Positions 406-3,276 of a stretch of 64,000 bases of DNA are shown here, in pieces. The position numbers and the translations under genes are program-made. The notes under the pieces are model-generated. The model was not told the origin of the DNA. It made no database searches and was given only the letters and a program-made list of their open reading frames with translations. Within the stretch, counting starts at the first letter, position 1; the number at the start of each line of letters is the position of its first letter. Source of the DNA: Acidocella sp. (GTDB lineage: Bacteria; Pseudomonadota; Alphaproteobacteria; Acetobacterales; Acetobacteraceae); assembly GCA_031291755.1 (NCBI GenBank), contig JARLIK010000019.1, forward strand, positions 62,001 to 126,000, in the 5' to 3' direction.

Positions 406-2217
406 ATGGACGGCTCGATCAAGACCACTGAGATCATGAAATCAGGCGCCGAAGCCTTGTTGCGGGCCCTGAAGGACCAGGGAGTCGATGTGATTTTCGG
501 CTATCCCGGTGGGGCCGTGCTGCCAATTTACGATGCGATTTTCCAGCAAAACGCCATCCGCCATATTCTGGTGCGTCATGAACAAGCAGCGGTGCATGCT
601 GCCGAGGGCTATGCCCGTTCCACCGGCAAGGTGGGCGTGGTGCTGGTCACCTCCGGCCCTGGTGCCACCAATGCCGTCACCGGCCTGGTGGATGCGCTGA
701 TGGACAGCATCCCCATCGTTTGCCTGACCGGTCAGGTGCCGACGCATCTGATCGGCAATGACGCGTTCCAGGAAGCCGACACTACCGGCATCACCCGCCA
801 GGCGACCAAGCATAATTACCTCGTGAAACGCTCGGAAGATCTCTCCCGCGTGGTGCATGAGGCGTTTCATGTGGCCAAAACTGGCCGCCCCGGCCCGGTG
901 CTGATTGATCTGCCGAAAGATATTCTGATCAACCCGGCGCCCTACGCTGAACCAAATGGCTTGCCGCACCGCAGTTACCGGCCGCGCACCGCGCCGGATG
1001 CCCGCAAGGTGGCGGAAGCGGTGGCGCTGATGAAGCGTGCCGAGCGGCCGATTGTGTATTCCGGCGGCGGCGTGATCAATGCTGGCCCGGAAGCGGCGAA
1101 GCTGCTGATGGAATTTGTGCGCCTCACCGGATTTCCCTGCACCTCGACCCTGATGGGCCTGGGCGCGTACCCCGCATCCGACCCGCAATTTTTGGGCATG
1201 CTGGGTATGCACGGTACCTACGAAGCGAACATGGTGATGCATGGTTGCGACGTGATGCTGAACATGGGTGCGCGGTTTGATGACCGCGTGACGGGCCGGC
1301 TGAATGCATTCAGCCCAGGTTCGAAGAAAATCCATGTCGATATCGACCCGTCCAGCATCAATAAATCGGTGGTGGTGGATGTGGCGATTGTGGGCGATGC
1401 GACTGAAACGTTACGCGCCCTGATCGCCGCCTGGAAAGCCGACACGCAAACGCAGGACCGCGAGGCGTTGGCGAAATGGTGGCAGCAGATTGATGTGTGG
1501 CGGAGTAAAAACTCGCTGCGCTTCACGCAGAACCGCGATCCTGGCAGCATCATCAAGCCGCAATACGCCATTGAACGGCTTTATAAAGCCACCCGTGGGA
1601 TTGCCAAAGATACATACGTGACCACGGAAGTTGGTCAGCACCAAATGTGGGCGGCGCAGCATTTCAAGTTTGATAAGCCAAACCGCTGGATGACTTCCGG
1701 TGGCCTGGGCACCATGGGCTATGGTCTGCCGGCGGCGATGGGTGTGCAGGTGGCGAACCCTGATGCGCTGGTGATCGACATTGCCGGCGAGGCCAGCATT
1801 TTGATGAATATTCAGGAAATGGGCACGCTGGCGCAGTACCGTTTGCCGGTGAAGATTTTCATCCTCAATAACCAATATATGGGCATGGTGCGGCAATGGC
1901 AGGAGTTGCTGCACGGTAATCGCTATTCGGAGAGCTATTCCGCGGCGCTGCCGGATTTTGTGAAGCTGGCGGAGAGTTTCCACGCTGTCGGGCTTCGCGC
2001 CGAAAAGGTTGAAGACCTGGACAAGGTGATTGCCGAAATGCTGGCGGTGGACCGCCCGGTGATTGCGGATATCTGCGTGGACCAGAAGGAAAACGTGTTC
2101 CCGATGATCCCATCGGGGGCTGCACATAATGAGATGCTGTTGGGGCCGGAACATAAGGCAAATGCCGGCGGTTATGGCGGTGGTTCAGTAACAGACGAAG
2201 GCTTGGTGCTGGTATAA
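406..2217 (+). CDS. ilvB: acetolactate synthase, large (catalytic) subunit
   Basis: Thiamine-diphosphate enzyme that condenses pyruvate with pyruvate or 2-oxobutyrate in the first common step of valine, leucine and isoleucine synthesis. At 603 aa it has the usual length. The N-terminal TPP-binding domain has F-G-Y-P-G-G and the catalytic Glu59 in R-H-E-Q-A-A; the C-terminal domain has the metal/TPP motif A-G-E-A-S (Glu462) followed by F-I-L-N-N. The first acidic residue of that motif is more often Asp. The start is the ATG preceded by GGCGGAA. The gene ends in TAATG, so its stop overlaps the start of the regulatory subunit by one base, which points to coupled translation of the two subunits. 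Feedback control by valine is expected through IlvH. Confidence 0.96.
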   Translation: MDGSIKTTEIMKSGAEALLRALKDQGVDVIFGYPGGAVLPIYDAIFQQNAIRHILVRHEQAAVHAAEGYARSTGKVGVVLVTSGPGATNAVTGLVDALMDSIPIVCLTGQVPTHLIGNDAFQEADTTGITRQATKHNYLVKRSEDLSRVVHEAFHVAKTGRPGPVLIDLPKDILINPAPYAEPNGLPHRSYRPRTAPDARKVAEAVALMKRAERPIVYSGGGVINAGPEAAKLLMEFVRLTGFPCTSTLMGLGAYPASDPQFLGMLGMHGTYEANMVMHGCDVMLNMGARFDDRVTGRLNAFSPGSKKIHVDIDPSSINKSVVVDVAIVGDATETLRALIAAWKADTQTQDREALAKWWQQIDVWRSKNSLRFTQNRDPGSIIKPQYAIERLYKATRGIAKDTYVTTEVGQHQMWAAQHFKFDKPNRWMTSGGLGTMGYGLPAAMGVQVANPDALVIDIAGEASILMNIQEMGTLAQYRLPVKIFILNNQYMGMVRQWQELLHGNRYSESYSAALPDFVKLAESFHAVGLRAEKVEDLDKVIAEMLAVDRPVIADICVDQKENVFPMIPSGAAHNEMLLGPEHKANAGGYGGGSVTDEGLVLV

Positions 2218-2735
2218 TGGTTGAACAAAATAACGGAAATCGCTCCGCCACCATCTCGGTGCTGGTGGAAAATGAATCGGGCGTGCTAGCGCGGGTGATC
2301 GGGCTGTTCTCAGGCCGCGGTTATAATATTGATAGCCTGACCGTGGCGCCGGTGGAACGCGACCGCAGCAAAAGCCGGATTACCATCGTCACCTCGGGCA
2401 CCGAGATGGTGATCGAACAGATCAAGGCGCAGCTTGGGCGTTTGGTGCCGGTCTATCGCGTGCAGGACCTCTCAAAGGATGGTCCGCATCTGGCGCGGGA
2501 ACTGGCACTGATTAAGGTCGTCGGCATCGGCGATGCCCGGCAGGAGGCGCTGCGACTCGCGGATGCCTTCCGCGCCCGGGTCATTGATGCCTCGACCGAG
2601 AGTTTTATTTTTGAACTGACCGGTGCCACCGATAAACTGGACGCATTCCTGGATCTGATGCGGCCCCTAGGGTTGGCCGAAGTATCCCGTACCGGTGTGG
2701 CTGCGATTGCGCGGGGTAAAAGCACCATCGAATAG
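2217..2735 (+). CDS. ilvH: acetolactate synthase, small (regulatory) subunit
   Basis: Regulatory partner of IlvB: it stimulates the catalytic subunit and in known enzymes carries valine feedback inhibition. The 172-aa product has an N-terminal ACT domain (about residues 12-85), with the typical I-S-V-L-V-E-N-E-S-G-V-L-A-R start and a G-x-x-I-D-S-L-T-V-A segment, then the C-terminal ALS_ss_C domain ending in G-x-A-A-I-A-R-G. The length is normal for ilvH/ilvN. The start ATG shares its A with the ilvB stop. ilvC does not follow; the next genes run on the opposite strand. Confidence 0.96.
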   Translation: MVEQNNGNRSATISVLVENESGVLARVIGLFSGRGYNIDSLTVAPVERDRSKSRITIVTSGTEMVIEQIKAQLGRLVPVYRVQDLSKDGPHLARELALIKVVGIGDARQEALRLADAFRARVIDASTESFIFELTGATDKLDAFLDLMRPLGLAEVSRTGVAAIARGKSTIE

Positions 2736-2751: not shown

Positions 2752-3276
2752 CTACCTCACAAACCGATCCGCGTACCCCGCGCCAAGCCCAATTGCCTCA
2801 TAATGCTTGCGGACATTGGCGAGCTTGGTGAACACATCCTCATAGCCCAACGCTGTGCCGTAAGGGTCCACATAGGTGTAGCCGCCGGTGACATGGAATA
2901 AGGTGGCCATCTCGGCGCAATCATCCGGCACCACCAGCGTATGCGTCTCGCCGGGTGGCTCAAAGGCATAGTCTCCGGCTTTGGCCACCCAGTCATGTTC
3001 CAGATAATGCCAGGTGCCGCGTAACGTGAAGGCATGCACCGGCCCGGTGTGGCGGTGGCGGGATAACACGCCGGAGGACCGCACCCGCAGGATATTGACA
3101 TAATACCCCTGCGACACGCTGAGCACGAGCGGCTTGAACGAGACGTCAGGTGATTGTGCCACCCAGTCGCGCTCATCGCCATCGAGGTTCATGGCCGCAC
3201 CAATGAATACATCGGGCAGCATCCCGGTAGGCTGCGGGAGCTGATAGGCTATCTTGCTGACATCCAAATCCGCCAT
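2752..3276 (-). CDS. cupin-domain protein, 2,4'-dihydroxyacetophenone dioxygenase-like
   Basis: A 174-aa protein with a single cupin barrel. The metal-binding cupin motif is visible as R-H-R-H-T-G (about residues 73-78) followed by a G-x-W-H-Y segment, and a second motif P-G-E-T-H-T-L-V-V lies near residues 108-116. The overall pattern fits the ChrR-like/DHAP dioxygenase group, non-haem iron proteins that cleave C-C bonds in aryl ketones, but the true substrate here cannot be told from sequence. A strong AAGGAGG lies 6 nt before the ATG. The gene follows ppa by 18 nt on the same strand, so the two are probably co-transcribed; no functional link is evident. Confidence 0.75.
   Translation of the reverse strand: MADLDVSKIAYQLPQPTGMLPDVFIGAAMNLDGDERDWVAQSPDVSFKPLVLSVSQGYYVNILRVRSSGVLSRHRHTGPVHAFTLRGTWHYLEHDWVAKAGDYAFEPPGETHTLVVPDDCAEMATLFHVTGGYTYVDPYGTALGYEDVFTKLANVRKHYEAIGLGAGYADRFVR

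Follow-up and report, generated by a model that had tools for sequence, protein, structure and literature searches.

Glutamate in place of aspartate at the metal motif of an AHAS large subunit is the usual residue of its lineage

The large subunit of acetohydroxyacid synthase (AHAS, acetolactate synthase) encoded in the window, the 64,000-nucleotide stretch of Acidocella sp. DNA analysed here, carries glutamate at residue 462, where the metal motif of thiamine diphosphate (ThDP) enzymes commonly has aspartate. This glutamate is the usual residue of the window's lineage and the finding is thus an ordinary one, within a phylum in which Asp and Glu have replaced each other repeatedly at this place. 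We put a probability of about 0.87 on the reading that the protein is an ordinary enzyme of the AHAS III (IlvI) kind, in which Glu for Asp is a tolerated carboxylate swap that keeps the role of Mg2+ ligand.

The gene and its metal motif

The large-subunit gene (Table 1) is a single frame that runs to its stop codon with no internal stops. Its product matches NF006581 ('acetolactate synthase 3 large subunit', PRK09107) with 1020.9 bits (cut-off 974) and TIGR00118 with 781.7 bits (cut-off 538.35), in both cases over the whole length, and it contains the Pfam domains TPP_enzyme_N, M and C. The small-subunit gene follows directly downstream, its first base being the third of the ilvB stop codon (a 1-base overlap), and matches NF008864 (222 bits, cut-off 119) and TIGR00119 (179.2 bits, cut-off 56.9). 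Judged from these family matches, the large-subunit product is an ordinary biosynthetic AHAS of the AHAS III (IlvI) kind, AHAS catalysing the first step on the way to valine, leucine and isoleucine. In the whole assembly, which is incomplete (83.67%, 38 contigs), this is the one place at which the AHAS family cut-off is passed.

Table 1. Features of the AHAS locus, in positions of the window
Feature	Position	Strand	Basis
ilvB / ilvI-type gene, AHAS large (catalytic) subunit, 603 aa	406..2217	+	open frame, NCBIfam and Pfam
Motif G461-E462-A463-S464	1786..1797	+	translation, in agreement with a pattern match at G000:C3:63786 (window start C3:62001)
Glu462 codon GAG	1789-1791	+	codon reading
Asn489 codon, second expected side-chain metal ligand	1870..1872	+	Asn in 168/168 rows
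ilvN/ilvH-type gene, AHAS small (regulatory) subunit	2217..2735	+	frame and NCBIfam

On its upstream side ilvB is preceded by the end of a miaA-like frame, which scores 51.5 bits against a family cut-off of 148.65, as expected of a fragment. On the other side, between the small-subunit gene and an inorganic diphosphatase gene, is a 174-aa frame (2752-3276, minus strand) that has no NCBIfam match at 0.001 and looks cupin-like by eye. Elsewhere in the same genome, another ThDP-enzyme-like stretch (G000:C5:47076-48665) was matched as two separate pieces, L003 and L005; a TGA inside the match of the second piece is perhaps only the gene's own end.

The sequence-only reading had pointed to a glutamate in an A-G-E-A-S motif, and the translation bears this out: AGEAS begins at residue 460, which puts Glu at 462, and an NN pair follows at the usual distance. 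In ThDP enzymes the motif Asp, an Asn 27 residues further on and a nearby main-chain carbonyl hold Mg2+, which in turn holds the cofactor diphosphate; we take Asn489 to be the corresponding ligand here, its role being carried over from ThDP enzymes in general. Gly461 and Asn489 are present in all 168 rows of our alignment, and the catalytic Glu59 of the N-terminal domain, which the window protein also has, is present in 167 of them, with one gap. Place 462 is acidic, either Asp or Glu, in 167 of the 168 rows, so that an AHAS large subunit is not defined by a strict Asp. The window protein has the consensus residue at each of the 121 near-invariant columns (>98% of rows agree), which, together with the small-subunit gene directly after it, fits the suggestion that the variant is probably functional.

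Given that Gly461, Asn489 and Glu59 are kept and that the protein follows the consensus at these 121 columns, the simplest reading is that Glu462 is the same carboxylate ligand. Its carboxylate would do the job of Asp as one of the ligands of the Mg2+ to which the ThDP diphosphate is bound, and the side chain of Asn489 and the nearby main-chain carbonyl would stand beside it in the Mg2+ shell.

Glutamate in the genus, the family and near relatives

We drew 40 relatives, 24 from the same genus and 16 from the same class, in addition to the window's own genome, and found 30 IlvB homologues, 29 of which were read across the motif. All 29 have Glu; one belongs to the own genome, and the others come from 20 of the 24 same-genus and 8 of the 16 same-class genomes. 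The same-genus genomes outside this count are G005 (L028, whose match ends at residue 483), G001 (a partial match), and G015 and G018, which are without a clear IlvB; the eight same-class genomes outside it include three that do have a match (G025, G032 and G036). When the own genome, genus and family are taken together, Glu is found in 22/22 homologues read. Among named relatives, which are mostly alphaproteobacterial, 76 of 80 have Glu, 3 Asp and 1 Arg, a set that consists of the best 80 among at least 591 relatives and so leans to near relatives; the named records in the tree set, from which L035 was removed, give 75/79 Glu, 3 Asp and 1 Arg. Alignment with relatives thus removes the surprise that the sequence-only reading had attached to this residue, as Glu is the norm in the genus, in the family and among near named relatives, which is the outcome that reading had named as its refutation.

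These counts also bear on the idea that the glutamate is a sequencing error or the mark of a decaying gene, to which the incompleteness of the assembly and the Arg at place 462 of one other record (L075) could lend some colour. Against it, the gene has no internal stop and keeps the consensus at 121/121 near-invariant columns, nothing else in its assembly passes the AHAS family cut-off, and the same residue occurs in independent genomes (20/20 same-genus homologues read), which rules out a local error or a decaying gene; we give this idea practically no weight. A trait confined to the genus is ruled out as well, Glu being present in the 76 named relatives above and in 16 of 30 loci from outside the class.

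Two records deserve mention in their own right. L075 (Magnetospirillum sp. MAG, JANQAI010000013.1) has Arg at place 462, with codon AGA and motif GRSS, in a gene that is otherwise normal and departs from the consensus at none of the 121 near-invariant columns; in the related L082 the codon is GAA. The Arg could reflect a fault in the assembly or a genuine loss of the acidic ligand. L112 (JAUCSE010000134.1), one of the named records, is filed as Mucilaginibacter (Bacteroidota); its IlvB shares 66% identity with that of the window and has Glu, as alphaproteobacteria do. The contig was probably binned into the wrong genome.

Asp and Glu across the phylum

Not every member of the class has Glu, and in parts of it Asp is common. 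The motif pattern, which also matches other genes, was found in 280/385 genomes of the class and 342/398 of the phylum. From the pattern matches listed, 40 class or family genomes were chosen, many of them on purpose for Asp strings; among the 34 of these with a match, 30 loci were read, 19 with Asp and 11 with Glu, numbers that reflect the Asp-enriched choice and are not a frequency. Asp is found in 4/4 of family f174, in 3/4 of family f171 and in the named Sinorhizobium record. Outside the class but within the phylum, 30 genomes were chosen blind to the motif; 29 had a match, at 35 places, and 30 loci from 29 genomes were read, with 16 Glu and 14 Asp. Some of these Asp loci belong to a second type of AHAS with lower similarity (43-48% identity). 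A match was present in 117 plasmid records, of which 17 were read: the 9 AHAS from Pseudomonadota have 3 Glu and 6 Asp, and the 8 from outside it, which span four phyla (Bacillus, Enterococcus, Peptoclostridium, Miltoncostaea, Streptomyces, Rhodococcus, Gemmatirosa and Parabacteroides), all have Asp. This retention of Asp outside Pseudomonadota indicates that the swap is not free everywhere.

The distribution was placed on a quick FastTree tree of 168 sequences, built with column 462 left out. Two sequences were dropped, L028, whose match stops short of residue 500, and L035, which is probably the same genome as L010; the sequences come from two genome collections, between which L035 is the only duplicate removed. 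In the 167 rows with Asp or Glu at 462 (131 Glu, 36 Asp), the place has changed between the two at least 12 times, direction aside, as compared with an average of 33.2 changes, and never fewer than 28, in 200 label shuffles. The codons at this place are GAG (76), GAA (55), GAC (21), GAT (15) and AGA (1), and those for Asp and Glu differ at the third base only. The few changes relative to the shuffles, together with this third-base difference, indicate that the state is inherited in blocks and flips readily. The suggestion that Glu might be a lineage trait is therefore right as to inheritance, but the lineage is far wider than the term implied, and Asp and Glu alternate within it. We infer that the swap, a conservative exchange that lineages of the phylum have made repeatedly through a third-base change, is close to neutral.

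Inheritance in blocks would suit a functional explanation, in which having Glu adjusts which metal is used or how tightly ThDP binds, for example through better use of Mn2+ or Co2+ or through weaker binding of Mg2+, and lineages switch for that reason. Residue 500 could be counted in its favour, being Glu in 114/131 Glu462 rows vs 9/36 Asp462 rows (Gln in 7/131 and 18/36, respectively). However, as far as can be told this link reflects shared ancestry: over 9 independent pairs, residues 500 and 462 differed the same way in 3.6, the opposite way in 0.2 and showed no difference in 5.2, with a median p of 0.25. We consider such tuning, and with it the effect on metal preference that the sequence-only reading raised, unlikely. 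More doubtful still is the version in which the place is a repeatedly thrown switch in proteobacterial AHAS, one that, together with residue 500 (Glu/Gln) as a partner, adjusts metal choice or cofactor affinity. Column 500 was picked beforehand as the strongest of many columns, among the columns listed, and as the independent-pair test is far from significant, we do not claim it as a compensating partner.

Comparison with known systems

Asp is the residue at this place in two other ThDP enzymes of the own genome (L002 and L004) and in its E1-alpha frame L180 (GDGAANQ, one frame read); the E1-alpha of branched-chain ketoacid dehydrogenase is reported to have Glu there. Engineered forms, E. coli AHAS II D428E and Zymomonas pyruvate decarboxylase D440E, have reportedly been studied, and our search for literature on engineered Asp-to-Glu mutants or Glu ligands in other ThDP enzymes found nothing usable. 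We also found no literature tying the Glu form to the AHAS of Pseudomonadota, in a search whose coverage of subscription journals was thin.

A 2012 numbering study of ~3000 sequences of ThDP-dependent decarboxylases gives 91% Asp and 7% Glu at standard position 444 (PMC3534367). The earlier statement that the common form has Asp therefore holds for the superfamily and fails for the window's own lineage. The Glu described here is the same residue as in that minority, at the same position of the G-D-G-X motif; the Glu-bearing subgroup is without a name in sections 6 and 8 of that study, and here it is the AHAS of Pseudomonadota. The variant is thus a conservative one that is typical of its lineage and, for the superfamily as a whole, was already on record. 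In a 2017 paper on AHAS evolution, D487 of AHAS III-A-L is listed among the conserved ThDP-binding sites (PMC5727371); its 27-residue spacing from N514 suggests that it is the same place as 462, and if so, its listing there as conserved is too strict.

Based on these results, we propose that for annotation the Asp of the G-D-x motif is better read as Asp or Glu in the AHAS of Pseudomonadota. The wider importance is small, since the seemingly odd residue is usual in the window's lineage. With the AHAS III / IlvI type (NF006581, TIGR00118) the window protein shares the whole-length match, the three TPP-enzyme domains and the small-subunit gene directly downstream. A search for a structure or assay of a Glu-form AHAS found none, and of the solved AHAS sequences listed, the nine distinct ones read in alignment (examples 6dek, 1jsc, 6u9d, 6wo1, 7tzz, 3e9y, 6u9h, 1ybh and 6lpi) all have Asp; it is from these, and from E. 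coli IlvI (L192), which likewise has Asp, that the window protein differs by its Glu, whereas at the metal motif it does not differ from its own relatives.
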